From Dermatophagoides farinae (Eukaryota > Arthropoda > Arachnida > Sarcoptiformes > Pyroglyphidae), in NCBI RefSeq assembly GCF_024713945.1, contig NC_134677.1, positions 995,001 through 1,059,000 on the forward strand: a stretch of DNA of 64,000 nucleotides, written 5' to 3'. Shown in pieces: positions 6,206 through 55,332 of the stretch (within the stretch, counting starts at the first letter, position 1; each line of letters starts with the position of its first letter). The notes under the pieces were generated by a model. The model worked only from the letters and a program-made list of their open reading frames with translations, was not told the origin of the DNA and ran no database searches. The position numbers and the translations under genes were made by a program.

Positions 6206-7670
6206 ATAATATGTGCTCGTATTTTTGTTTCTACTCTGTAAGTACATTGCATACTTTATGCGGATGTTAGTGCCTGTTTTTTTTTTGTATTCAGCAAAAT
6301 GGTTTTTTTTCTCCTGGTGATGGAGATGGTGGTGTGCAGGTTGGGTGGAACAAAAAAAAATTTCTCATTCTTAGTGTGTGTATCCGAATGTGTGTGTGTG
6401 TGTGTGTGTGTGTACGGTACAGATATATATAAAATTAATGAGCCATAATGCTTGTTTTCCGATTCTAGAAACTATGATGATTCTGGTTGCTTCATTTTTT
6501 TTTCTAAAACCAAATTGTAATGTAGAATATAGAAAATGGAATGGATGATTTTTTCATTTCATTTCATTTCATTTTTTATTCTTGCTGTTGTTGTTGTTGT
6601 TTTTTGCTGTTTCTGTTTTTTTTTCTTCTTCTTTTTCTTCTTCTTATGAAACAAGATGTTTTTGTTTTTTTCGCCAATGTAAGAGCACCACTTACGTTAT
6701 GCATTTATCTGTATATATATAGTGAATGGTGATATTAATACTAATGATGAGGAACACAAACACGCAGACCCACAAAAAAAAACAGAGTCAGAGACAGAGA
6801 TAAAAAAAATATACATCATGTCTGTGTATGTAATGTGAAATTGTAATTTTTTTTTTCCAACGAAATTTCCTAAAAATGAATAGTCATCATCATTTATTTG
6901 ATTTCGTAAGAGAGTGGCATATATATATATCAATTTAAATGGTTTAACCCCATCAGAATACAAAAACAAAAAAAAAAACAAAATCTGATTCAGTATCTAG
7001 TAATTGAATGAATGTATGAATGAATGATGAAAAAGGAAATGACAAACTATTGAAAAAAAAGTGCACTATAAACTTTCGAATGAAATGTGGATGAAAAAAA
7101 ATCTACTTGAAGAAAAAACAACAACAAAAAATGTATGTGAAAAGATGCATGAGAAAAAAAGGGGATCCAATGATGATGATTCTGGAACAAGAGTAGTAAA
7201 TTCTGGAATCAGTGAAAAAAAAACGAAAGTTTTCAACAATAAACATCTGGGGCTGAAACAAAAAAAAGAAGCTTGAAGAATGGAAAAATTAATCGGGTTA
7301 TTTTGTTGTTGTCTCAATTTTTCTTTTCAATTTTTGTTTTTGTTTTTTTTCTTTTGTTTTATTCTTCGGATTCTTATCCAATTGCCCAAATGACGGTGAG
7401 AATGTGTGTGTGTGTCTAGCGGTTGTCAAATAAAGACAGTATTTTTTCCATTATTCCACAAATTCCACACGACGACGACGACAAAAAAGAATTTCGAAAT
7501 CGAATGAAGAGAGAGAGAAAAAAACTTATAAGCTGACAGTGACGGAAATACCATTTTCGGTGGAATTTTTTTTTCAATTTAATCTAATTTAAATTTTTTC
7601 TTTTTCACATAAAAATCAATTATTCATCAATTTTTTTTATGTTTTTTTTTGTTGTTACTCATGATATTAG

Positions 7671-10600
7671 GTCCATCAATGACCATTGCCACATCGCAAA
7701 GAATTTCGGCCAATATTGGTGATAATGTGATTTTAAAATGTGCCTTGGAATCATCAATGTCTTCATCATCATTATCATCATCATCATCATCATCAACAAT
7801 AGTGAACAATCCAAATAATCATCAAACATCATCAACATCATCATTATCATCATCATTAATTGGTGGTAAAATATCACAAGCATCAGTATCATTATCAACT
7901 GAACCATTCATGATACAATGGTATAAGGATGGTTCAAAAAATCCCATATACATTTATTATGAAAATTTTGATCCAACCTATGGTGATGGTTTTGAAGGAC
8001 GTGTATCATTAGTAGATAAAAATACACAGGCATCATTAAATTTATCAAATATAAAGGATAGTGATCAAGGATGGTATGAATGTAAAGTATTCTATTTAAT
8101 GCGTGAAAATAATGATGATGATCCGGGTAAAAATCGTACAAGAATTTTACTTGAAGTTAACTGTAAGTATTTGCCATTCTATGACAATGATCATCATCAT
8201 GATCATGATGATGACCCTTGTGTTTCATTCATTCATCTTCACATCAAATCAGAATCTGCATGAATTTTTTTTTTATTCATAAAAATTTTAAATAAAAAAA
8301 AAGTTTCTGGAAACAAAAATAGTGAAAGTAACAGCACGACAACATCTTGCAATAATAATACAAAAAAATAAAAGTTTCTCATCCATAAAATATTTGGCTG
8401 TTGTAGAAAAGGAAATAAATTCTTTTGAATGGATAACAAGATGATAATGTTGTTGTTCAACAAGAATCGAACTGTTTTCCATACACACACACACACAGAC
8501 ACTGGTTATCAACAAATCAAATTCTGGCCATTGAAAATAAAAAATAGAATCAAAAGAATAAAAAAAACTTTTTCTCTACAAATAAAAGTTTCATATTTTT
8601 TTCTGAATTTAAATCTTGAATTTTTTTTCCATTTACCTGATCATGGACAATCAGAACAACAGCACAGTGGAAAACTTTGCTTTTTAAATGTATCAATATA
8701 CTTGAGGCGATTTCTTTTTTCTTTTTTTTCCGTTCATATAAAATTCAGAAACCTTCAGGTATAACATGATTCTGGATTCTGGATTCTTTTTTTTCATATC
8801 ATCGACATTTTGATTTTGGATTTTCCACTACAGTGGAATTAAGTTAAAGAAGAAAAAAAAAATAATTAATTTTTAAACGAATCAGATTCAGTTAGACTGA
8901 TGTGCACACAGACTTAAGCCCACGATGATGATGATGATGATGGCAAAAAAAATTCATTAATCATTTTGACTAGAAAAAAAATCAGAAAGCAAAAAAGTGA
9001 ATCAAAATAAAAAAAACGGAAAAGGAAAGAGAGAGAGAGAAACGATAAATTATTCAATACATGATGGAATATTGATGGAATTTAGTTCAGGAATCATAAT
9101 AATAATGAAAAAAATAGACTTAATTCTTTTGATTTTCGTTGAATATATTCAAAATAGCGGATGAGAGAGAATGATAATCGCATTTTTTTTTTGTTCTTCT
9201 TGGTAATTAATAATAACCAAGTTTTTTTTTGGTGATGATAATTCATCTTCAATCAACCAGCGAAAACAGTAAAAAAAACATTTTTGATTATATAATTAAT
9301 TAACATTGAAAAAAAAACCGAACGAATGAATGAATGAATGATAATCTAAGAATAAAATTCTCAATCATTTTCTGATCTCAATTCTTGATTTTTGTTGTTT
9401 TTTTCTCTGTTAAATATAGCACCACCACATTTTAAAGAGAAACCACCAGAAGCTGTTTTTGTTAAATCAGGCGATTCATTAACAATACATTGTCGTGCAC
9501 ATGGAACGCCAACACCAACGGTTCTTTGGCAAAAGGTAGCGTGGCAGTGTTGTTTTTTTTTCATTCTTCACTTCGATTTTTTTTTCATTTTTTTTCCAGG
9601 ATAATTCCTTAGTTCAAAATAGTGCCTCAATACGTGTTCATGGTGGTGAATTGATATTGAAATCAATTCAAAAAGATGATACCGGTACCTATGTTTGTAT
9701 AGCAAAAAATCGTCAAGGTTCATTATCGGCCAATACACAAGTGTTGATTTCATCACCGGCTGAAATTGTCAATCCACCACGTAATACAACAGTATTGGAA
9801 AATAATCGTGTAGAAATGTCATGTGGTGCACGTGGTACACCATCAAATATCACTTATCGTTGGTATCATAAAGGAATTTTGATTAGTCAATTACAAAAAT
9901 TAGCACATCGAACAAAAATAAAAACCGATGGTACATTAGTGATATTATCTGCTGAACCAGATGATGGCGGTAAATTGACCTGTGATGCAACCAATGGTAT
10001 TGGTGAGCCAGATACTGCCTATGCTCAACTTAGTGTTGAATGTAAGTGTTAAATAGTAATAAATGTGTGATTTAAAAAAGAAAAATTGTTTTCACAGTTC
10101 CAGCACGTGTAACATATTCACCTGCACGACAATATCTACCTCTTGGCATGTCAGGCATTGTACGTTGCTATATACAGGCATCACCACAATTACAATTTGC
10201 TACATGGACAAAAGATCATCGAATGTTTGATCCAACAACATTACCGAATGTTGAACTATTAGCCAATGGTTCATTATTGTTTCATAAAGTTTCACAAGAA
10301 CATCATGGTTTTTATCGTTGCACGCCATATAATCTACAAGGTACTGGACAAAGTTCTAATTCAATGGAAGTTATTGTTCGTGGTAAGTGTTTGTAGCTGG
10401 TTTAAAAAAAAAACAAAATCAAAAATCTCAAATTTTTCAAGCAATCATCATCATCATCATTAATTGAATTAATCATTTATCCAGACGGTAAAAAGCTTTT
10501 TTTCAGCTTGAAAATCACAGAAAAAAAATTTTTTATTTATATTTCAACAAAAACGAAAAAAAAATCAAATCAAATCAATAATTTTCACTCATTGATCGAT

Positions 10601-18744: not shown

Positions 18745-21700
18745 TTGCAAAATGACAAAAGATTCAAATATATTATTGACCAAAGAAAAAAAAACAGTAG
18801 TGGTAATAGTGGGGTTAGTGTGGCAAAAAAAAACAAAAACAAAAACAAAAAAAAAAAAATTGACATTCAATTTATGAAATGAAATGTGAAACGAAATGAA
18901 TGAATATTTCCACCCTCCCCCCACCGTCCCTACTCATTCAATTCCCGGATACCATCATTCTCTATCCACTGGTTTTTTTTTGTGTTTTTATTTCGTACCA
19001 AAAACAAATGATGATGATGATGATGATGATGGCCAAATTGATTAAAACCAGCCCATATATAAACATGTTACGCACACACACACACAAAACAATAGGACGC
19101 CAGCAATTGGGGCAGAATACAATGATATACAGATGATGATGATGAGATCCAGAAATAAAGCTAAAGCCAATGATGATGATCATTACTCTAGTGGCATTAT
19201 CATCATTGTGATTGTGATTCTGTGTGTGTGTGTGTGTGTGTGTTGGACTAGAATATACAATAAAATACCAGTGAATAAAAGAAAAAAAAGAAAGTAGAAA
19301 GATAATGAGAAAAAAGACAAAAGAGAAAGTGAGAGAGAGAGAGACAGACAGAATAAATGGGGTAAATGTTATGCAGAATAACTAGAATACGTCGTTCGAT
19401 CGAAACCAAAAAACCAAAAAAAAAAAAAAAAAAAAATAGAAAGAAAGAATAAATCCACAGAATAATTTTTGGTTCAATTGAAACGTAACCAAAAATATTA
19501 TGAAAATTCATCCAAATCTATTCTATTGATCATTTGGATCGATAGAATATATTCTTTTGTTTTGTATCTAGTAGTCTAGTTATCTTATTTTCTTTAATCA
19601 TGAATGGAAAAAAAAATTCTTTATGGAATTGAATTTATTTTTATTTTAATGAGTACAAAACAATGCTCTACTGCTTACCAAAAAAAAAACGTGAAAAACA
19701 ACAGAAACTAATCAAAATTCTTTGACCGAATGAAAGAATTTGAACGCAAAAAAAAACAACAACAACAACAGCCATGGACTGGTTGAATTAAGCTTTATCG
19801 TGACAATGATATTCGAAACAAACAAACAAATGAAAAAGAATTAATTCGAATTGATAGAAAGTTGATCATATATTCATTGAATCTGTCATTGTTTATTATT
19901 GTCTCTGTCCTGTTTGTTTGTTTGTTTGAGCTTGTTGCCGTCGTCGTTGCTGTTGTTGTTGTTTTCATTCATTAAATTCGTTAAATTTTTTTTGCATTTC
20001 TTGCATTTTATTCATTCATTCATGAGTTTCAAGCATCGATTGAACAGAGAAAAAACGACATTCTTTTGTTTTTGTTTTTGTTTACTATATATGCGATCCA
20101 GGCAATTGATATTGATGATATGGAAAGAATTTTTCATTTTCATTTTCGTTGTTTGTTTGTTTGTTTATTCAGTATCCTATATCTGCAGAATATACACTTG
20201 GTTACGTCAACAGGAATTCATATGATATGTCTATACATGAGAACTATGGAAGTGTGTGAGAGTGAACAAAAAAAAAAAAAAAAAAAAACTGAATTAATGA
20301 AATTCGATCCATCTTATACAGACACACACACACACACACAGACACACTGAATGTTGTTACAGATATGAATTTTAAAAAGAAGCAAAGCAAAAAAAAAAGA
20401 ATTAGAAAAAATCACTGAATCATAAATATTAAGAATCATCATCACCGTGTATTGAAATTCTTGATTAGATTCATTCAATTTTTTTTTTTGGCACTCACAG
20501 GCCAGATATTGAATATAATGATATGATAATAATCATGATAATATATTCTATGGCACCCAAAAATGAAGAGAATCATGAAACAACATTTCAACTTGTTATT
20601 GAATTCTTTTCTCTTTTCTTCTCATTTTTTTTGTTCCTTAAATAAACCGACGAGAATTAGACAGTTAGAGTTTGGGATTTTTTTTCTCTCTCTCTCTCTT
20701 GCTTCTTACAAAAAAAATGATTGTGATTAACATTTAAATGACGAATAATAATTCAATTGTTGTCGTTTTTTTTATATTCTGTTTTGAATGTGAAACAAAA
20801 AAAAATGAGAATAAATCCAATGTGGATCGAGGCAATTGTCATCACTACCATTTTCTCATTACCATCATCATTAGAATTTTAAGTTCATGCCCACCATTCT
20901 TGATGAAGAACCATTCGTTAAAGAATCAGGAAAAAAAATTGTCTTTTCCAATGTTAATCAAGAATCAAAGTGAAATTTATAAAAAAAAAAAAATAGAACC
21001 ATTGTAGCCCATCACGTGATCACTATTTATGGGGAACTTTTTTATTTGAATGAATTAAATTCCCGTAAACATTCTCATAAAGAAAGTTATGATAAAAACT
21101 CAATGATGATTTGTGTGTATGTGGATGGACTTTGATCATTCACTTTTATCAAATAATCGAGTGAATTGAAATGAAAAAAAAATCATCATCATCATCACCA
21201 CTTATCTCTTGATTTGTAATTTTCATTTGTGACATAATGTTCTATATATCAGACGACGACTAACTATTACTACTATTATCGATGGTTAAATCAAGCAATT
21301 TACAAAAACAATTTTCTTGTTGTTGTTGTTGCTCCTTCAACATAATGACAACAACAACAACAATAACAACAACAACGATGATGATAATAATAATGGAGAA
21401 TGTAAAATAATAATCACTGATACTTGAAAGTTTTTTTTTCTTCCAAGAAAATTCTGTAATTCTGATTAAATCTTTCATTGAATGTGAATGATTCATTCTT
21501 TTATACATACACACACACACACACACGAATACTAAGTAATTAACTTTAATTTTATCTCTTTGAAAAACGTAATGTAATTGTTGTTGTTGTTGTTGTTATT
21601 ATTCAAGTGGTGAATCGATATATACAGCCCATGAATTTGTAAACAAAACTTTTTTCTATTTTCTTCTTTTTTTTCCATAGTACAAAATATTGTATCACAA

Positions 21701-23039
21701 TCGGATCCGGATACAACGACCAACAATATGATTAGAACATTAGATGTACCGACAGTAATACCGGAATCATTATCAGCAATATCTGGAATGTCAACAAAAT
21801 TATCGATTCTTAATAATGATAATAATAGCCATTCGATTGATAGCGGTGGAAGTAGTGTTGGTGGTGGTGGTAATGGTGGTGTAACACCCGGATCACCACG
21901 TAATGTAAGCATTGAAAAAATGGCACAAGGTTGGGTTGTATCATGGTTACCACCAATGCATCCACAACCAACACCGGTAGCTTATTATTCTGTAGAATAT
22001 CGTGAAGGCGATGGTGATTGGAATATGTCCGAACAGATTGCTCAAGATAATGCCTATCTAAGTGAGTAGTTTTTTTAAAAAATTTTCATTTCAGATTTTT
22101 ATAATGTTTTGTTTTTTTTCATAGTAAAAGAGTTAAAAACATCAGTGAAATATACGATACGTGTATGGGCCTTTTCCATATTGGGCATTGGCACGGCAAG
22201 TTCATTGATCGAATATAAAATAACAAGTAAGCAGAGTTTGTTTGTCCCTTGACGCTAATTTTTCATTCATTCACAATTTCATTTTCCATTGTTGTTGTTG
22301 TTTTTTTTTCTGGAACGAACCAAAATTCTTTTTAAAAAAAACAGACACCAGTGGCAGTATGAAAGGATCACGAGCAATAACAGCCGGTGTTGTTGGCAGT
22401 GTTTTGTTTTTTGTTGCTGCCATAATATTATCCGTATGTGCCGTAAAAATTTGCAATAAACGTAAACAAAGAAAAATGGAAAAAGGTAAGCGTTGAATTT
22501 TCATTCTCATTTTCTAAATAACCTGCCCCCTCCAAAAAAATGATTCTCATTACCAGATTAATATGATGATGATGATGATGATGATGATGACCATGACCAC
22601 CTTGGTCAAATCTGCAATCAATCAAATTGCACAGAAAAAAAAGCTGTCATCATCATCATCATTGTTGTGTGAACAAAGTTGTAGGCAAATAATGAAAATT
22701 GAATTGAATCAGAAAAATTCTGGTAATTCAAATACATACTATATATGGCATAGATTCTGGCAACAAAATAGAATTCCAAATTATCGTTATGATTATGAAA
22801 AACGTGTGTGTGTGAGAGAGAGAGAGAGAGAGAATGAGATCCATTTATAAGTTTGGCCTACCGAACCGAAATGTCATTGCATTTCGTTGAAGACATTAAT
22901 TTAATGGATCAACATTTGAAACACATGCACACACACACACATTTAATATGCGCGAGTGAGAAAAAAAATACAAAAATGACCAAAAAAAACACACACACAA
23001 ACGGCAAATAAGCATCAAATCTAAAGGGACCATCATCAT

Positions 23040-32962: not shown

Positions 32963-35900
32963 ATGAGTTCAAATAATCGAAAGAAATCCACCATGAATGG
33001 TGGTATTTCTATTAACAATATGGAACAACAACAACAACAGAAACAACAACAACAACAAAAACAGAAACAAAAATCTCATAATAATAGTCATAATACAATG
33101 AATGGCAATTGTGTTGGTGGTAATGGTGGTGGTGGTGGTGGTGGTAATGAAAAAAAACCACAACAATTAAATGGAACTAATCAAAATAATGGATCCACGA
33201 CGAAAACAACGGCAACAAAGGTGACCGGAAAAACTTTTGGTCGATTTCTTTATGAAAGGTGAGTGTGTGGTACTTTTTTTTTCTCACTAGACTAGGTCAG
33301 TGTATTCATCAATGTTTTTTTTTTTGCATCACTTGATCGTAGTTTTAATCGTGAAAATTTGGATGAATTATTTCGTCCTGGACAACAATCTATTGAAAAT
33401 TATAATCTATCATTGGCACATCAACGTGCAAATTGTGCATTAGACATGTATCTTGGTGAGAATAATGTACAAGGTGGTATTGAACGTTTTGCCGATATTA
33501 TTGATGAAGGTCCAATGGAATCATTATCATGGGCTGCTTGTTTCGTCATACGTGCCGGACTAACATTGGATAAAGTAAGTTTTTTGTGTGTGTGTGTATG
33601 GTCCAAACCAAAATTGAACCAACGAGTGTGTCCAAATGAACTGAATTTCTATATTCTTCTTCAGAATTTGATTCTACACAATGAAAATATTTAGATATAG
33701 ATGCAGGACACAATATTCAATATATTTGAAAAGAAAATAAAATGAAGAAAAAAAAAGTTTTCTGCCGAAAACAGAAAGAAAACTTTTTTTTTCTTCATCG
33801 ACAATTTTGATTGTCCATCATCATCATGTTAATTGCTGTTGTTGTCGTCGTTGTTGTTGTTGTTGTTTGAATCTTGATTCTGGATTCTTGTAGTAGTGTT
33901 CAATATTCAAACACAAACACTGAAAGAAAAAAAAATCGAATCATCAAACTATAACGATGATAAACTTTAGTTTTGTATGTGTGTTGGTGATAATTTTAAG
34001 AAAATTTTTTTTTTTTTGCAATTGCAAAGTTTTTTTCTTCCGTTTTTTCCGAAAACATCTTCATTCTGACCATTTATGTCCATCATCATCATCATCATCA
34101 TCATCATCTAATCAACAACAAATCTTTATTTATATAACGACTGATTGATCGATTGGAAAGAAAGAAAGAAAGAATGAATGAAAAAAAAAATCGAAATCTA
34201 TTCAAAGTTTTTGTTATTATTAGTAAATAAAATTCGTTGTTTTTCGTCAGAAATCATTGAACAATTTTGCACGTTTCAACGAGTTTTTTCTTCTCTCTCT
34301 CTCTCCCCCTCCCCATCACACACAGCAAAGGTTAGCTGTTTTTTCAACTTCAACGACCTTTTTTTTCTTCAGAAACCGATGAAACTTTTTTTTTTGTTTC
34401 TGTTACTGATGATCAAATGTGAATCGATGAAAAAAAAAATAATCGTAATGAGTGTCGAATTGTGTGTGTGTGTAATCAAGAGAGAAATAGCAAAACAAAA
34501 AAGAATTTTTCCATTCCAAAATGAAATGAAAAATAGATAGATGAATGGTGGATGGAATTCCGCTATTCATCCATTCTTCTTCTGAAGAATATTCTTTAGT
34601 CGGCATCATTAGGATAATAGATGATGATGATGATGATGGAATAAATGTTTGGATCCAACAAAAAAAAAATTTGTTTTTTTTTCACTTGTTTCACTTTTAA
34701 GTAGGAAAAATTTAAACTAACTTTTTTTTTTCTTTTCCTTAAAATTCTTTTCTTTTCTTTTCATTCAATGATGATCACCATTATCTTTGATGATGATGAT
34801 GATGATGACGATCATCATCATCATCATTCACAAATGTGTCGTCGAACAGTGAACAAAAAAAAAAAAAATGCTTCCGTGAATTACTTTTATGCCAAGTTGA
34901 AATTGAAGTTAAAGTTGAAATTTTCACTAAACTTTTTTTTTGTCTGATAATAATAATTTATTGATGATAACTAAACAGAAACGTTATGCACTACAATTTT
35001 TTTTTTTTTTTTACATTTTATATCCATCTATGATGAACTTTTTGAATCCGAAAAAAAACGTAACAAATTTCATTTTGTGCAGTGCCCGATGAAAAAAAAA
35101 CCAATTTTTTTTTGTTGTTCTGTTTGTTTGTTTTGTTCATGTGCATTAATATATTCACATATATATATAACGTTATATTTGAATTTTTTTCTTCACTATT
35201 TTTATATTTATACAGGATGATATTGAAAAAGCACGTAAATGTCTACAGCATACGGCCAAAATGTGTCAGAAAATGATGAAACATTCATTTTTGGATAACA
35301 TCTCCAAATGGATTGTTGCACCAAATTATGATAAATATACTGATGGTATGTTTGTTTCAGTTTTTTTTTTGTTATTGAAAATTAGTAGTGGAAGGGTAGG
35401 GAATTAATGATTTTAGTTTTTCGTTTTTCGTTGATCATCATCAATATTAATTAATTTTGTTTTTTTTTCATTTTATATATCAACACATTGATTAATGATG
35501 ACCATGGTTGATTTCAATTAATCAATATGAAAATCAAAGTGGAAATATTTGCCGAAAGTTATTATGCTCAACAGCTTGCATTATCGATTGCATTGTATGC
35601 ATTCGAAACGAATAGTGTTTTTACATTGATCAAATTGGCCTATCATCTAAGGGGTTTAGTGCGTAAACATACGTAAGTTGTTGTTGTTTGTTTGAATTGA
35701 ATTTTGAAATTTAAATTTAATTTTTTTCATTGCTTCGCAGTGAATTATGGCAAGTAAAAAAACGTCGTAAATTGTGGCAAGATGAACAATCACGGCTATA
35801 TTTTGAGGCACATATGCGTTTTGCAAACGGTATGATCAACGTGGTCATTAGCCATACGCCGCCGAAATTTTTGCGTATCATGAATTTTTTAGGCTACAAA

Positions 35901-38900
35901 GGCACAGAAACAATCGGTTTGAATGAAATGAATCGTGTTGCATTCGATTTGAATGCCGGTTATTGGACCAAAATGGCACAATTGACATTAATTTATTATT
36001 GGGTTTATGGTAAACCACATGGTGAAAATGTACCGGATGATTTATCATTATGTAAAAAATTAATTGAAGCTGAATTGCAAATGTTTCCACAGGTTTGTTT
36101 TTCATTTGTCTTAAGTGAAAAAAAAACAAGAAAATGAAGATCCAATCATTTAGTTTCATGGTAAAAACTTGTCAACGGTTCATTCTGTAGTTATATATAG
36201 AGGTGTGAAGTTGTAAAACAAAAAAAAAACGGCAACAATGAACATGTCTATTTTACTGCTGAACCAAAGAATCTTTTTTCGTTTTTTGTTTGACAAGAAA
36301 TTTTTTTTTTTAGTATTCAACTCATATTCAGATGATCATCATCAGCAAGTTTTAGTTCAAGAATCTTTTGTATTCTTTCACCGTCTCTTTACTAGCACCT
36401 AGTTTTAGTTTTAGTTTTGGATCAAAATTTGATTTTCTCATTTTTGTCATAATTCCATATATATATCACATCATCATCACATTATTCTGTTTAACCAGAA
36501 AAAAGAGAGAGAGAAAAAAAAACTTTTTCTTCTTTGTTTCGTTTCCTTTTCACACATTTCATTCATTCCATTCCATTCATTCATTTCTTTTGTGATTACT
36601 TTACTTTGCTATCTTTTTCTCACTTTCTTTGTCTCATTTAGTTTCTTTTGGTTTCAAAGTTTTTTTGTGTGTGTGTGTGTGTGTGCGCGCCAAAAGATTT
36701 ATTTCCACAAATAACGTAATATAATATAATTCAGAATTTACATGACAAAATGTGATCATGATGATGTTGTTATGTGATTTGATTTCTAAATGATGACGAT
36801 GATTGGATTTTTTTCATTTTCATTTTTATTTTGCTTGTTTTTTTTCTCTGTATTGATTAATTGATTTTGTTTTTCTTTCGCTTTATAATATAGAGCATGT
36901 TATATGGATTAGCTAAAGCAAAAATTGAACAGATCAACGGTGAATTTGATCGAGCCATAGAAATATTACAAGGTTTGGTAAGGGCACCAAATCTAGCCAT
37001 TGCATATAAAGCATTCTATTTTGAATTAATATGGTGTTATGCCATCAAATTGGATTGGAACAATTGTATATTGTGTGCGGATAAAATACGTGAAAGTAAA
37101 CATTCACCGGTTTGTATGGCATTTTTGAATGCCGTTTTTCGTTATGTAAAAGGTGTGGATGATAAAAATCAACAGTTATTGGATCAGGCATCCGAAGAAT
37201 TTGAGTAAGTTTTTTTTTCATTTTATATTTTTATTTTTTGGCTCATATTCTGTTGCTCAATTAACAAGCGGTGTAGAATTTTCTTCTTTTTTTGCTCATT
37301 TTTCACACTAAAACGAAAAAAAAGTCGATCCTTAGTTGGGTTCATTTTTTTTTCTTCAAAAAAAATTTCAACACTGACTTGCTATAGTAATGATCAAGTT
37401 CAGCGAATTTTTTTTTAGAAATAAACTTTTTTTGAGAAAAATTTTTCTTGAAAACTTTTTTTTTCTAGTTTCCCAGTTGTAAAATAGGACAAATGAACAT
37501 AATGATGATGATGTGAAAAAAATTTTCAGCTCATGATGATGATTGTTGTTGTCATTGTGTTTATTTAACTGGAGAAAAATTTTATACTTGTCACACACAT
37601 AACAATGTCATTTTCTCTTGTTGTGAGTTTTTTTTTGAATAATAATGATTACAACACTGGTAAAAATGAAATTCAGTAAACAGAATTACATGTAGTTTTG
37701 CCTTGGGCTATTCATATTCGCTATATTCTTGCGTGTCTATGTGTGTGTGTATGTTTCATTCAATTTTTTTTCTGGAAATTTATTTTTAAAAATTTGAATT
37801 TTTCTTTCTTTCTTTTCCTTTCCATTGCTTCTTCATCACCTGTGCCGTTATTTGATTTTGATTCATTCAAAAAAAAAGACGTTTACCAAGTCTTCGTATA
37901 CGACATTTTGGTAAAACAATGACCACAGAAAAAGCAGCATTAGCGAATGCAGCATTATATTTTAAAAAAGGAAAATGTCTCGTATTACCCGTTATTGTAA
38001 GTATTTTTGTTTTTCAATCAACCTGGCAACCGATCAAATCGAATTGAATGCGTTAAAAACAAAAATTCCAACAACAACAAAAAAACAAAATTTTCATCGA
38101 TAAATTCAATCAAATAAAATGCATAGGCAAACGAAAACGAAAAAAAATACTGAAACAGAATGTTATTCTTTTTAATGTTTTTTTTCTGCTAGTTGTTGTT
38201 GTTGTTGTTGTTGTTTTTTTCCCGTGATATTTGTTCGATCGGTTGCTCGGTTGATATTGATGATAAATGGTTATTAATCATTTTTTGTTGTTGTTGTTGT
38301 TCCACATGAATGCCATAAAAAATGCATCATCAATGGATGGCGAATATAAATTTTTTTTTTTTTTTTTTTTTGGAAAACGCACAAACACAAACAAACAAAC
38401 AACCAACCCAAACAAACAACAATGTTTCGATATTATTTCAACCATTATTATGATTGTATTATATGCTGACAATAACAACGACGAAACAACGAAAAACAAC
38501 ATCTATAGGCAATGCTTTATTCTGGTAACTATCTAATGTTTGTTCGTGATCACAATCAACTGGCCAAACTGATGGATCGTTGTGAACGTGAAGTAAAACT
38601 TTATGAACCAGATATTGGTAAGAATCAACACAAAACATAAAGTCATATAAATTATTGTACACAATTTATATGAAAATATAACAAACACGGAATATTTGTT
38701 GTTGTTGTTGTTTCATTCATTCATTTTTTTACAATTTTTTAATTCTCTCACTCTCCTCTTTTTTTCTTTTATCACCTGAATTTTAGAAAATTCTCATTAT
38801 CTTGATAATTATCTGACGGCATTATTCTATAAATGTGTATTATTACGACGACAACAACGTTATGAGGAAGCAAGAAAAAATCTACAATTTATTCTTGATT

Positions 38901-41466: not shown

Positions 41467-42588
41467 TTACTGTTGTGGCTGAAATTTTGCTTTCAATTTT
41501 CGATCACTATTTGTTTTACTATGCTTTTGTGACATTGTTGTTGGATTTTGTTGCTGCACCGGTACATTGGTGGTGATTGTTGTTGATTGACCAATCATCA
41601 TCATAGGATTGGTGGCGGTAGTTGCTTGATTAATGAATTTAATAATCACAATGGTCATATTATCTTTGCCTTGTATACCACGTTCAGGCATCTCTTCTGG
41701 TAATATTTTCCTAATAATATCTTCAGTTATTTGACTTAAACGATCTGTACGTATACGACGACCAATATATTGTATAATTTCATCATTTGTCATTGAATTC
41801 CATATACCATCACACATCAATACCATAAATTGATCAGTTTTTTCATTATATGGTTCAACAATAACATCTGGTAATGCAATAATCATTTGTTCAGTCAATT
41901 GTAGATCTGGATTACATTTATACATATGATCACCGAATGCACGTGATACATTGATTTGCATATTGATACGGCCACGCATAACAGTACCACCAGCATGTTC
42001 AATTCTTGTCATTTCTTGTGGATCATCTGGTTTTGTATCCACAGATAATGGAACTGGACGACCATTCCTGGATAAAACACATCTTGAATCGCCAATATTT
42101 GCACAATAAAATGTATTATTCTTTAACAGACAAACCACTGCTGTTGATCCACTAGTAAATCCAGGCGTATATTCCGGTATATTTGGATGCATCATTCGTC
42201 GAATTTCACGTAATTCATTTACCGATTCACGTAATAACATTGAATTATCCAACAAAATAAATGCCTCTTTTAAACCATCAACAATATGACCATTTTGATA
42301 TTTACGATTACGGCGTATATATTCTGGTAAATATTTAGCTGCATATGTTGAAACTTCAACACCATTATGTCCATCGAATACAGCGAACAATGATGATTGT
42401 TGTTGTTGTTGTTGCTGGTGTGGTTGTGTCGTTGTATTATCACCATCCAAATATGGTATAATTACGTGTACATCTTCCATTGTATTACGCCAACCTTGAC
42501 ATGATGTGGCGGCAAATTCAAAATTTGGTCCCGAACCAACACTTGTATGCATCGAACGAATCGCTTGTCGTAGATAAACGCTAGCCAT
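41467..42588 (-). CDS. PPM1G-like PP2C serine/threonine phosphatase
   Basis: An intronless 373-codon metal-dependent protein phosphatase. The metal-site and catalytic motifs of the PP2C fold are all present: RNTMED (34-39), FDGH (71-74), SGSTA (146-150), GDSR (166-169), RAFGDH (216-221), CDGIWN (259-264) and KDN (308-310), so it should be active on phospho-Ser/Thr. The stretch SRAFGDHMYKCNPDLQLTEQMIIALPDV resembles PPM1G (PP2C gamma), but the long acidic insertion of vertebrate PPM1G is absent, and Q7 (58-64) sits just before FDGH. I chose the ATG at 42588; an in-frame ATG at 42681 would add 31 basic residues of 5'-UTR character. It is convergent with TTC39 and lies 0.3 kb downstream of OSCP on the same strand. 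Confidence 0.9.
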   Translation of the reverse strand: MASVYLRQAIRSMHTSVGSGPNFEFAATSCQGWRNTMEDVHVIIPYLDGDNTTTQPHQQQQQQQSSLFAVFDGHNGVEVSTYAAKYLPEYIRRNRKYQNGHIVDGLKEAFILLDNSMLLRESVNELREIRRMMHPNIPEYTPGFTSGSTAVVCLLKNNTFYCANIGDSRCVLSRNGRPVPLSVDTKPDDPQEMTRIEHAGGTVMRGRINMQINVSRAFGDHMYKCNPDLQLTEQMIIALPDVIVEPYNEKTDQFMVLMCDGIWNSMTNDEIIQYIGRRIRTDRLSQITEDIIRKILPEEMPERGIQGKDNMTIVIIKFINQATTATNPMMMIGQSTTITTNVPVQQQNPTTMSQKHSKTNSDRKLKAKFQPQQ

Positions 42589-42743
42589 ATTTTTTTTTGT
42601 TTCGGCAAACTTGAATAATTTCTTTCTTTTTATTTTTATGGCTGCAAAATTCAAAATCAACATCGAATGATTTTTTTTCATGAATTTTTACATAAATTTC
42701 CATTCAATTGTTGTTGTTGTTGTTGAATTAAGAGAAAAGGAAT

Positions 42744-43650: not shown

Positions 43651-44067
43651 TTTGGATTGATGAATTGATTTTTTCTACAATTTAAATATATCGAATAAAG
43701 AAAATTACATTTGAAGACATCACACAACACCACAATACACGCTCACCTTAAGTTGCCCTGAATTTTTGTTTGTCTAAATCAACATAAGTATGCTTTCTGA
43801 TGTGTTAATAGTGCATGCTGCAGCGCATGCATGCTTTTTTTTTCGTTTCATACAAACAATTCTTTCAATCAAACGCGTGAGTTGAATCCATCTTGGAACC
43901 AGAACCAGTGTTTCTGGATTGTTTTGATATTTTGTGTAGAAACAAATTAAATCCATAAAAATTCCTGATAAATTTCCGTAAGTTTGAAGATTGTTTTTAT
44001 TTTATTTTAGCAAATTTTTATTTTTGTGTGTTGAAAAAATGGTCATTTTCAGTACGACAAAAAAAAT
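43651..44067. promoter_or_regulatory. Divergent promoter region of OSCP and NHP2
   Basis: A head-to-head arrangement of two housekeeping genes with 417 bp between start codons. Unlike most intergenic DNA here it has few simple repeats. Three GCATGC hexamers lie within 22 bp (43813-43834), next to a T9 run, and are candidate promoter elements. No TATA box can be assigned in such AT-rich sequence. Confidence 0.55.
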
Positions 44068-44715
44068 ATGGGACACAAACGAAGTTTGGACAATGCCAAT
44101 AATAATGTTGATGGTGATCAAGAATGTTCCACCAATCCTATTGATCAACAGCCATCGGCGAAGAAAATGAAAACATCGAAAAAAATGAATGGATCAATTC
44201 AACTTGAAGATACTATTGAAGATGTGTCAGTGAAAAAAGAAGAAAATGAAGAAAATGTTGAAATTGTACCACGAACACGTCGTGACATGATACAATTACC
44301 GTATGATCAGAAATTGAAATTTGTTTCGATTATTGCTCAACCGATGGCTGGAAAAAAATTGGCTAAAAAATTATTCAAATTAATGCGAAAAGCAAGTAAA
44401 CAATCGAGAAAAGAACAGCTACGTATTGGATTGAAAGAAGTACAGCTTCGTATACGTAAAGGTGAACGTGGTATTATTGTATTTGCTGGCGATGTAACAC
44501 CGATCGAAATAATGTGCCATTTACCTGGCATTTGTGAATCAAAAGATTTGCCATACATTTATGTACCATTTCGTACGGACATATCATCAGCCATTGGTGT
44601 ACGACGACCAGCTTTAATGGTATTGATTAAAACACATTCTGAATATCAAGATTTATATGATGAATGTGAAACTAAAATTCGTGAATTGATGCTAGAATTT
44701 TTGAAAACCATTTAA
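44068..44715 (+). CDS. NHP2: H/ACA ribonucleoprotein subunit NHP2
   Basis: A single-exon gene of 215 aa. NHP2 is the L7Ae-family core protein of H/ACA snoRNPs, which guide rRNA and snRNA pseudouridylation in the nucleolus and Cajal bodies. The L7Ae domain spans about 75-210: IAQPMAGKKLAKKLFKLM, the GLKEVQLRIRKGERG RNA-binding stretch, IVFAGDVTPIEIMCHLPGICE and the DLPYIYVPFRTDI segment, closely matching human NHP2 (KGVKEVQ-type and CHLP motifs). The first 70 residues are a charged, Lys/Glu-rich, nuclear-signal-like extension (AKKMKTSKKM), longer than in vertebrates. The CHLP motif and the GVRRP loop favour NHP2 over the paralogue SNU13. Confidence 0.95.
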   Translation: MGHKRSLDNANNNVDGDQECSTNPIDQQPSAKKMKTSKKMNGSIQLEDTIEDVSVKKEENEENVEIVPRTRRDMIQLPYDQKLKFVSIIAQPMAGKKLAKKLFKLMRKASKQSRKEQLRIGLKEVQLRIRKGERGIIVFAGDVTPIEIMCHLPGICESKDLPYIYVPFRTDISSAIGVRRPALMVLIKTHSEYQDLYDECETKIRELMLEFLKTI

Positions 44716-50959: not shown

Positions 50960-52415
50960 TCATGATTGAAATTTTCCAATAAATAGCTGCATTATCAACA
51001 GATACATGGCCATAATTTGAGCAACAATCTATGGATAAAGAATGAAAAGAAAATTATTCGGTTGTTTTTGTTTTTTTTTGTTCGTAATCGAAATCGATCT
51101 CACTTACCGTTATCTGTATGATTGGTCCCAATTTTATGCCATCACTTCGTGTAAATATTAATGAATCTGTATCGATCAATGTGACATGATTTTGTATTTT
51201 CAAATGATTTCTTAAATCAATATGATATTTAGGAATAATTTTCTGTGTATCATGAATACGAATTTGTTTTAATTGTACAGCAAGTTTTGTTACTATTTTT
51301 GTATATGAAAATAACATTGTTATACTCAGAATGATTAGTTCAATAAAACATATGCGAAAAATCCATTCCATTTCTATACAAGTTAATACGTAAAGAAAGA
51401 AACCAATTATAATGGAACATAATTGATTTAATGCTGTTAGATGTAATCGCCAATAATGAATTTGACAAAATATTTCATCAATCAATTGATTTATTGATCG
51501 TATATATTGTCGTATACAAATGTTGATTTGTTGTTTATTCATTCGTTTAGTTGTTGTAATATAAATGACCATAATTCTATAATCAACATATTTAATTAAT
51601 CTTGCCGATTTATATCGTAATATTAACAGTATGATTGGAAATAATGTTAATATTGATACTAACAAATCAACAATAATGAATGCCCATGTGGTCCACATGA
51701 ATGTTATGAATAATGAATATCCATAGTAAAGCAGATATGAATTATAAAATAGATGTAGATTATTCATTTTCGGATCACTTATGAGGAAAATGGCCATGGA
51801 TGTAAATCCGGTTGCTAAAGGTATACTATATGTACAGAATATACGAATTAAACAAAAAAATTGTATAAATAATCTTAACGATATATCTGGCTGGTAATCA
51901 TTTCGTTTAATCATTTTTTGACGTTTTCGTTTATTCAATCGTGAATCAAGTAAACTGTAGATTTGTTTTGAATAGATAATGTTTAATTTGAAGAAAAAAT
52001 TTGCTTCACTTGAAATGAACATAACAATCCATTGTGTTAATGCTGTTATCGATAAAAAACAGGTGGTCATTTCCATACTAAATGTATTGCCTTTTAATAA
52101 ACGAAATTCTGAACCAAAAATGGTTAAATATAAACTATCATCATTGTCAATGAAATTGGCTATAATGAATGAACGAATAATGAAAAATAAAAGAAATACA
52201 AATATAAATTGAATTCGTTTATCATTGATTGTTGGCCATCGTTTGTCCAATGAATGTTTTTTCAATCGTCGATAATGTTGATAATGTTTGAATAGTGATC
52301 GAAAACATTTTTCAGTCAAATAATCAATGTAAATATTTTCATCTGGTATTGGAATAATTAAACAACGAAGAATTAGACTTATAATTCGATGTTGAATTTC
52401 TTGCAATGATATCAT
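50960..52415 (-). CDS. Gustatory-receptor-like 7TM chemoreceptor, copy 1
   Basis: Two exons, 51108-52415 and 50960-51028, separated by a 79-bp phase-0 intron (GTAAGT to CATAG), give 458 aa. Hydrophobic helices lie near 69-90, 115-134, 183-213, 225-268 (two), 328-347, 351-370 and 437-453, fitting a seven-TM arthropod chemoreceptor. The last exon encodes IVAQIMAMYLLIMQLFIGKFQS, the position and shape of the gustatory receptor TYhhhhhQF signature, and a final short exon after a phase-0 intron is a hallmark of that family. Such receptors form ligand-gated cation channels in sensory neurons. I start at MISLQEI because copies 2 and 3 begin at the same place; the open frame extends 35 codons further without conservation. 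The ligand is unknown. Confidence 0.75.
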
Positions 52416-52874
52416 CTTGTTTGTTTCTCTTTGTGTGTATGTGTTTGTGTAGTGTTCACAATCGTTAACTGCCAAATGACATAACCAACAAAAATGTAAT
52501 TTAAAAAAATTTAATACCAATGAACCAATGTTGGTGGTGGTTAATTAACAACCTAGAAACAAGCCAAACAAACAAACTTTTCATTAAATTTTTTCATTGA
52601 ATGTTGTTTTTTGAATCATTTTCAAAAGTTTTATTTTTTTGATAATTAATTCTGAAAGATGATTTTATTCATTAGAATATTTCTTTGGAAAAAAATGTTC
52701 TTCCACACATTATTCAAAATGTTTTTATTGATTGATGATTAGAGATAATTTAAGAAAGGATTCGAATTACATGTATTATTGATGACGCTTGGAGATAGAA
52801 CGTCACATTGAATTTCTGCCACGGCGGTTTTTTTTTGTTCCGGTGAATTCGAAATTATTTTTAGGAGAAAAAAA

Positions 52875-54342
52875 TCACGATTGAAATTTTCCAATAAATA
52901 GCTGCATTATCAACAGATACATGGCCATAATTTGAGCAATGATCTGTGAATAAAGAATAGAAAGAAAATTATTCGGTTGTTTTTGTTTTTGTTTTTTTTT
53001 GTTCGTAATCAAAATCGATCTCACTTACCGTTATCTGTATGATTGGTCCCAATTTTATGCCATCACATTGTGTAAATATTAATGAATCTGTATCGATCAA
53101 TGTAACATGATTTTGTATTTTCAAATGATTTCTTAAATTAATAGGATATTTTGGAATAATTGCCTGTGTATCATGTATACGAATTTGTTTTGATTGTAAA
53201 ACATATTTTGCTGCTATTTTTGTATATAAAAATAACATTGTTATACTCAAAATGATTAATTCAATAAAACATAGACGAAAAATCCATTCATTTTTAACAC
53301 TAGTCAATACATAAAGAAAGAAACCAATTATAATAGTACATGATTGATATAATGTTGTTAGATGTAATCGCCAATAATGTATTTGACAGAATGTTTCATC
53401 AATCAATAGATTTATTGATTGTACATATTGTCGTATACAAATGTTGATTTGTTGTTGTTGATATCGTTGTTTGGTTTTTGCATCATAATTCTGTTTAATT
53501 CTGGCTATTCTATAATCCACATATTCAATTAATCTTGCCGATTTATATCGTAATATTAACAGTATGATTGGAAATAATGTTATTATTGATACTAACAAAT
53601 CAACAATAATGAATGCCCATATGGTCCACATGAATGATATGAATAATGAATATCCATAATAAAGTAGATTTGAATGATAAAATACATGTATATTATTCAT
53701 TTTTGGATCACTTATGATGAAAATGGCCATGGATGTAAATCCTGTTCCGAAAGGTATACCAAATGTACAGCTTATACGAATGAGACAAAAAAATTGTATA
53801 AATAATCGTAACGATATATCTGGCTGATAAGCAATTCGTTTAATCATTTTTTGACGTTTTCGTTTATTCAATTGTGAATCAAGTAAACTGTAGATTTGTT
53901 TCACATAAATGATGTTTAATTTGAAGAAAAAATTTGCTTCCTTTGAAATGAACATTACAATCCATTGTGTTAATGCTGTTATCGATAATAAACAAGTGGT
54001 CATTTCCATACTAAATGTATTGCCTTTTAATAAACGAAATCCTGAACCAAATATGGTTAGATATAAATTATCATCATTGTCAATGAAATTGGCTAGAATG
54101 AATGAACGAATAATGAAAAATATAAGAAATACAAATGCAAATTGAATTCGTTTATCATTGATTGTTGGCCACTGTATTCCTACTGATTGATCGGCCATTC
54201 GGTTATGATCATATTTGAATAGTGATTGAAAATATTTTCCAGTCAAATAACTAATGGGAATTCGTTCATCTGGTACCGGAATAATTAAACAACGAAGAAT
54301 TAGTCGTATAATTCGATGTTTAATTTCATCCAATGATATCAT
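52875..54342 (-). CDS. Gustatory-receptor-like 7TM chemoreceptor, copy 2
   Basis: Exons 53029-54342 and 52875-52943 (phase-0 intron, GTAAGT to CACAG) give 460 aa, a tandem duplicate of copy 1 shifted by about 1.92 kb. Most residues match copy 1 by eye, including the last exon. Differences cluster in two places: the N-terminal loop around residues 45-60 (YDHNRMADQSVGIQWP instead of YQHYRRLKKHSLDKRWP), and the loop before the helix near 300, where copy 2 reads IARIKQNYDAKTKQRYQQQQ. There is no frameshift or stop, and substitutions keep the helices hydrophobic, so both copies look functional. The duplicated unit includes 5' and 3' flanks. Confidence 0.75.
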
Positions 54343-54874
54343 CTTGTCTCTCTTTCTGTCTGTTTGTGTTGTGTTCACAATCATTAACAGTCAAATGACA
54401 TAATCAACGAAAATGTAATGTGTGAAAATGAAATAATTATGGATACCAATGAACCAGGTTGGTGGTGGTTAATTAACAACCTAGCAACAAACCAGACAAA
54501 CATTTCATCACATTTTTTTTATTGATTGTTGTTTTTTGAAAGTTTTTTTCACTTGAATTTTTTTTTTGTTTTTTTTTGAAAATTAATTCTGAAATATGAT
54601 TCCATTCATTTATATGGAATATGAATATTACTTTGGAAGAGAGAAAAAAAAGGTACACGCACGAATAATTAATTTTTTTTTTTTGGTTTGTTGAATTTTC
54701 ATTTGAAAATTTTGAAATTTTTTTAGTTTTTTTTAAAAAATATTAGTTAATCAATCTGAATTGGTTGAAACGAAATGTGCTGAAATGTTTATGATGCCGA
54801 TGATTGATTGATTGATTGATTGATTGTGTTGACAATCAAATTTTCTACTATAAAATTCATCAACAATGCCTGTT

Positions 54875-55332
54875 TTATTGCAATTTTCCAATAAGTAGCT
54901 GTATTATTAACAAATAAGTGGCCATAATTTGAGCTGGAATCTGATTGAATTCATAACAAACAAAAAAAAATTGTTTTCATATTTTTAAAATATATTCAAT
55001 TCATTGATTTATTGATTTACCTTCAATTTTGTGATTGGTCCCAATTTCATACCATCAGTTTGTGTAAACATTATTGAATCTGTATCGATCAATGTGGCAT
55101 AATTTTGAATTTTCAAATGATTTCTTAAATCAATACGATATCTAGGAATAATGATGGTCTGTGTATCATGGATACGAATTCGTCGATGATGTTGATAATG
55201 TTTGTATAGTGATCGAAAACATTTTCGTGTTAGATAATCAATAAAAATTTTTTTATTTGGTATTGTAAAAATTAAACAACGAAAAATAAGACGTATAATT
55301 CGTCGTAGAATATATTGAAAGGATATCATCAT
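54875..55332 (-). pseudogene. Internally deleted gustatory-receptor-like copy 3
   Basis: Exons 55021-55332 and 54875-54940 encode 125 aa. The first 50 residues (MMISFQYILRRIIRLIFRCLIF ... FRSLYKHYQHHR) match the N-termini of copies 1 and 2. The next residues (RIRIHDTQTIIIPRYRIDLRNHLKIQ ... DGMKLGPIT) jump to the region 50 residues before the last intron, so about 335 residues containing all central TM helices are gone. The junction is in frame, the donor (GTAAAT) and acceptor (ATCAG) are intact, and the last exon reads IPAQIMATYLLIIQLLIGKLQ, an even better match to the TYhhhhhQF signature. It cannot form a channel and is most likely a pseudogene. An expressed truncated product remains possible because nothing in the frame is broken. 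Confidence 0.75.

Follow-up and report, generated by a model that had tools for sequence, protein, structure and literature searches.

A small tandem array of probable, highly divergent gustatory receptor genes in the dust mite Dermatophagoides farinae

The arthropod gustatory receptors (Grs) carry the motif TYhhhhhQF in their last transmembrane segment (TM7). A phase-0 intron just before the exon encoding TM7 is general, although not universal, in the Grs (PMC2680840, PMC9998090), and in Drosophila the proteins Grl36a and Grl43a are reported to have been recognised partly by this intron and by a variant TM7 motif (PMC9998090). The Grl proteins are described as cryptic relatives of the Grs, as the genes reported here would be, and they offer the closest precedent for recognition by intron and TM7 motif; they came from structure screens in flies (PMC9998090), whereas the mite genes are linked by profiles and introns. 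The receptor BmGr9 is reported to be a fructose-gated tetrameric cation channel (PMC11100771, PMC10769236). In mites and ticks, the published figures are 13 predicted chemoreception proteins in Sarcoptes, of which one is called gustatory-receptor-like and others sweet-taste-receptor-like (PMC4930577), four gustatory-receptor-like proteins assigned by KEGG in D. pteronyssinus (PMC12105342), 24 Grs in Neoseiulus cucumeris (PMC6902594) and, in one table, 5 to 689 Grs in other mites and ticks (PMC6275457). Among the literature matches listed, in a coverage that leaves most subscription papers outside, no title or opening of an abstract names the genes described below.

We examined a stretch of 64,000 nucleotides of the D. 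farinae genome (hereafter the window) and read one of its loci, with a probability of about 0.87, as a short tandem array of strongly diverged Gr-family genes, two of them intact-looking and the third an internally deleted remnant. Like the arthropod Grs (PF08395, 7tm_7), represented here by Drosophila Gr64a and by the recognised D. farinae Gr at locus L001, the window genes have a predicted inverted seven-transmembrane pattern, a final phase-0 intron located at the same codon and a TM7 placed on a short last exon, and they occur as tandem copies accompanied by remnants. Unlike them, the window proteins have no Pfam or PDB sequence match and, in the aligned register, have lost the T, Y and F of TYhhhhhQF; their genes also lack the penultimate intron predicted in L001.

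Layout of the array and gene models

Copies 1, 2 and 3 lie in tandem on the minus strand and, as read from the sequence of the window, have a common last-exon design (window coordinates):

51108..52415, minus strand: copy 1, exon 1; 436 codons with TM1-TM6, frame open up to the GTAAGT donor
51029..51107, minus strand: copy 1, phase-0 intron of 79 bp, GTAAGT...CCATAG; its aligned codon is that of the predicted last intron of the recognised Gr
50960..51028, minus strand: copy 1, last exon; 23 codons including the stop, with most of TM7; IVAQIMAMYLLIMQLFIGKFQS, then stop
53029..54342, minus strand: copy 2, exon 1; 438 codons with TM1-TM6, open frame; protein 82% identical to that of copy 1 exon 1
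52944..53028, minus strand: copy 2, phase-0 intron of 85 bp, GTAAGT...TCACAG
52875..52943, minus strand: copy 2, last exon; 23 codons including the stop, with most of TM7; IIAQIMAMYLLIMQLFIGKFQS, then stop
55021..55329, minus strand: copy 3, exon 1; 103 codons, the N-terminus joined to the segment preceding TM7, as placed by alignment and junction
54941..55020, minus strand: copy 3, phase-0 intron of 80 bp, GTAAAT...AATCAG
54875..54940, minus strand: copy 3, last exon; 22 codons including the stop, with most of TM7; IPAQIMATYLLIIQLLIGKLQ, then stop

The spliced products of copies 1 and 2 would be 458 and 460 aa long, and the open frame of copy 3 has 124 codons. The exon-intron structure of the array is real, and its splicing in vivo is presumed. 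A preliminary description of this DNA had proposed a short final exon of 22-23 codons, stop included, after a phase-0 intron, and this holds for all three copies (23, 23 and 22 codons, behind GT-AG introns of 79, 85 and 80 bp); it had also placed the end of the unspliced frame about 12 residues into the intron, a figure to be corrected to 17 residues in copy 1, 19 in copy 2 and 3 in copy 3. The same description counted three receptors, of which two receptor-like genes stand. Copy 3 is a remnant, because its alignment with copy 1 reveals an in-frame loss of 334 codons, TM1-TM6 included, which rules it out as a third receptor.

Elsewhere in the window, a PP2C protein phosphatase gene is found at 41467-42687 on the minus strand (Pfam 1.2e-61) and, on the plus strand, an L7Ae-family RNA-binding protein at 44035-44715 (Pfam 5e-17) and an open frame with an Iml2/TPR39 match at 35721-36137 (Pfam 2.8e-11). 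Immunoglobulin-domain open frames with a sub-threshold fibronectin III match lie at 7613-10052 and 21635-22069, also on the plus strand, and are perhaps exons of a single cell-surface gene. A tRNA scan and an Rfam scan at the gathering threshold gave no matches over the whole window.

Sibling genes and the connection to a recognised receptor

It had been suggested that these proteins are divergent enough to escape a simple search, and a profile search of the spliced products against the Gr/7tm_7 models had been proposed as a check. Pfam returned no family at E<=10 for spliced copies 1 and 2, so the proposed check gives no direct match to the Grs. A PDB sequence search likewise found no match, either to copy 1 exon 1 or to the family profile described below. 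Over the genome (62,435,336 bases in 22 contigs), the 7tm_7 profile had hits at E<=0.001 in two places, both outside the window, among the best 14 candidates scored, and the 7tm_6 profile found L001 and one further place, L031.

The array has relatives within the genome. The exon-1 protein of copy 1 retrieved loci on contigs C2 (E 6.2e-6), C6 (6.6e-5) and, weakly, C3 (0.72); the C3 protein retrieved the C6 locus (1.2e-39), the C2 locus (7.7e-21) and, weakly, the window (0.76); and the C6 protein led to C3, to C2 and to the window (8.1e-5, 1.3e-4). The sibling loci are as follows:

G000:C3:4949500-4954500 (L026): tandem array with two full-length single-frame genes and partial copies between and after them
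G000:C6:4037500-4043500 (L025): two copies, C6a and C6b, both fitting a penultimate Gr-type intron and both changing frame
G000:C2:7816000-7819000 (L027): one sibling; splice sites are predicted where each of the two terminal Gr introns would lie

C6a has one mid-gene frame change, which may be an intron or a shift, and C6b has additional breaks. Pfam searches at E<=10 of the joined C6 and C2 siblings returned nothing relevant. In hhalign, where each E-value refers to a single pairwise comparison, the window pair matched the four sibling sequences with a probability of 97.9% (E 3.2e-13, 408 columns), the C6 and C2 subset at 9.8e-12 and the C3 subset at 5.6e-6, the best of 15 decoys reaching 0.015. 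The decoys were drawn from 21 GPCR and MFS loci in this genome, of which 15 were used (L045, L050, L060, L061, L062 and L065 being left out), each represented by its longest open frame, trimmed to 600 residues, whether or not this was the receptor or transporter frame.

The recognised Gr, L001, lies on C6 at about 145 kb and matches Pfam 7tm_7 at 1.9e-8, 7tm_6 at 9.5e-7 and the Drosophila Gr64a chains at 4.5e-5. A six-sequence family profile, made of the window pair and the four siblings, aligned with the main exon of L001 at E 1.1e-5 and, once its two terminal exons were included, at 1.9e-7 over 193 columns, up to residue 448 of the 458 of copy 1. In the controls, the reversed comparison of the family with L001 gave 0.5, the best of 100 block shuffles 0.029, and the best of the 15 decoys compared with the six-sequence family 0.012. 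The siblings without the window copies reached 8.2e-8, the C6 and C2 subset 1.6e-8 and the C3 pair alone 0.0073, whereas the window pair alone had no detectable similarity to L001 (E 0.35). Judging from these subsets, the window genes join the Gr family via their siblings and not by themselves.

A second reference cluster was compared in the same way:

G000:C4:5654500-5662500 (L029): three Gr-like genes, with ...NYIVILLQTE close to the end

Its middle gene scored 25.7 bits against 7tm_7 as an open frame (cut-off 26.6) and 28.7 bits in the genome search. The cluster gave E 0.56 with the family and 0.39 with L001, and homology of the family to this cluster was rejected for want of signal. One of the 15 decoys reached 0.002 with the same cluster, and single comparisons near 0.002 can therefore be noise.

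Terminal introns, topology and the TM7 motif

All three copies have, as predicted from the sequence, a phase-0 intron immediately upstream of the exon for TM7. When the profile alignment was inspected by eye, the last intron was seen to follow the same column in L001 and in copy 1. Counted from a GF-like anchor (G = 1), it comes 17 codons further on in L001 and in copies 1-3, and the C2 sibling has a GTGAGT donor at this point. A predicted phase-0 penultimate intron is located 13 codons before GF in L001, C6a, C6b and C2. Splice sites were assigned visually both in L001 and in the siblings, and for the siblings this was done in knowledge of the GF spacing, which makes the coincidence of the penultimate introns the weaker evidence; the match of the last intron between the window and L001 is the stronger item, since the window introns had been fixed beforehand and the alignment uses no intron information. 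For the C2 sibling, the candidate last exon VIANTTTLFILVAQN (VIANTT-TLFILVAQN) was chosen by eye among 10 candidates and a later check did not confirm it.

Copy 2 has seven hydrophobic segments, and its K+R counts, taken in order over the N-terminal part, the successive loops and the C-terminal tail, are 10/2/11/1/11/1/8/1, a pattern that predicts an inside N-terminus and an outside C-terminus. Copy 1 has the same charge alternation and a weak eighth hydrophobic segment at residues 11-29. This orientation is the reverse of that of the GPCRs. AlphaFold models of the exon-1 proteins of copies 1 and 2, made from these two window sequences, had a mean pLDDT of 38.6 and are evidence neither way.

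The last exons encode MYLLIMQLF in copies 1 and 2 and TYLLIIQLL in copy 3, as had been noted for the place of TYhhhhhQF, yet the register set by L001 starts one residue earlier, giving AMYLLIMQL in copies 1 and 2 and ATYLLIIQL in copy 3. L001 has six codons (TIAAVA) followed by SYFLIVADF, and copy 1 has six codons (IVAQIM) followed by AMYLLIMQL; in this register copies 1-3 all have the spacing of L001. The register first proposed keeps Y and F in copies 1 and 2 and T and Y in copy 3, whereas the L001-aligned one leaves Q as the only one of the four canonical residues (T, Y, Q and F). The TM7 motif is too degenerate to be diagnostic of the Grs, where the preliminary description had spoken of a diagnostic last exon; the Gr-family reading itself is supported by the chain of siblings to L001, the position of the last intron and the predicted inverted topology.

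Frame maintenance, alternative readings and significance

Chance does not account for two open frames of more than 430 codons at a GC content of about 27%. Copies 1 and 2 differ by about 148 substitutions (40.2 synonymous and 107.8 nonsynonymous), and none of 3000 neutral simulations of 148 substitutions was stop-free. A constraint read from a simple dN/dS of 0.67 vanished against composition-matched simulation, in which 1004 of 3000 neutral runs were as low, and the nonsynonymous change between the copies is at the neutral level. Copies 1 and 2 look like genes whose frames are maintained and whose amino acids are drifting fast or diversifying.

The neutral level of nonsynonymous change could also mean that copies 1 and 2 descend from Grs but have lost their function and are decaying like copy 3, from which TM1-TM6 are gone; the fragments and broken frames among the C3 and C6 siblings point the same way. 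However, both copies have kept full-length frames and consensus splice sites, and the simulations never left such frames without stops, which makes a decay of this kind unlikely. Conversely, copy 3 could be a working mini-gene, with a single-pass TM7 peptide modulating the full-length receptors, given that its deletion is in frame, its splice sites are retained and its 124-codon frame is open; yet in 4000 simulations a frame as short as this survived neutral drift in about 22% of cases at 25 substitutions and in about 7% at 49, we know of no precedent for such a modulator peptide, and we give this idea hardly any weight.

A more general objection would be that the array belongs to another multi-pass membrane family, a rhodopsin-type GPCR or a transporter, resembling the Grs by composition. 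The missing direct Gr match of the window proteins in Pfam and PDB, the degenerate TM7 motif and the absence of fold evidence would all agree with it, but the GPCR and MFS decoys gave E>=0.012 with the family where the recognised Gr gave 1.9e-7, the topology is predicted N-in/C-out and the last intron is at the Gr position. Taken with these three observations, an origin in another family appears very improbable, and we favour the Gr-family reading, in which copies 1 and 2 are probably very divergent new members of the known family and two probable receptors, their channel function and ligand being presumed.

In a receptor of Gr/Or descent, the intact copies would be seven-helix proteins with a predicted inside N-terminus and outside C-terminus, and their products would be expected to form tetramers acting as ligand-gated cation channels, with a pore lined by TM7, most of which the very short last exon encodes. 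The tetramer and the pore features come from published Gr/Or structures. The site of action would presumably be sensory neurons.

Few gustatory receptors are on record, in the sources cited above, for the astigmatid mites, the allergen-producing dust mites included. We tentatively suggest, at somewhat less than even odds, that much of the taste-receptor repertoire of the house dust mite consists of a fast-evolving Gr subfamily that is specific to mites and escapes Pfam; if so, the published counts, as they appear in those sources (one in Sarcoptes and four in D. pteronyssinus), would be too low. A Pfam scan is blind to this lineage and the route through siblings and introns finds it, and the latter could thus serve for a recount of Grs across mites, while the window genes are concrete candidates for expression and channel assays.
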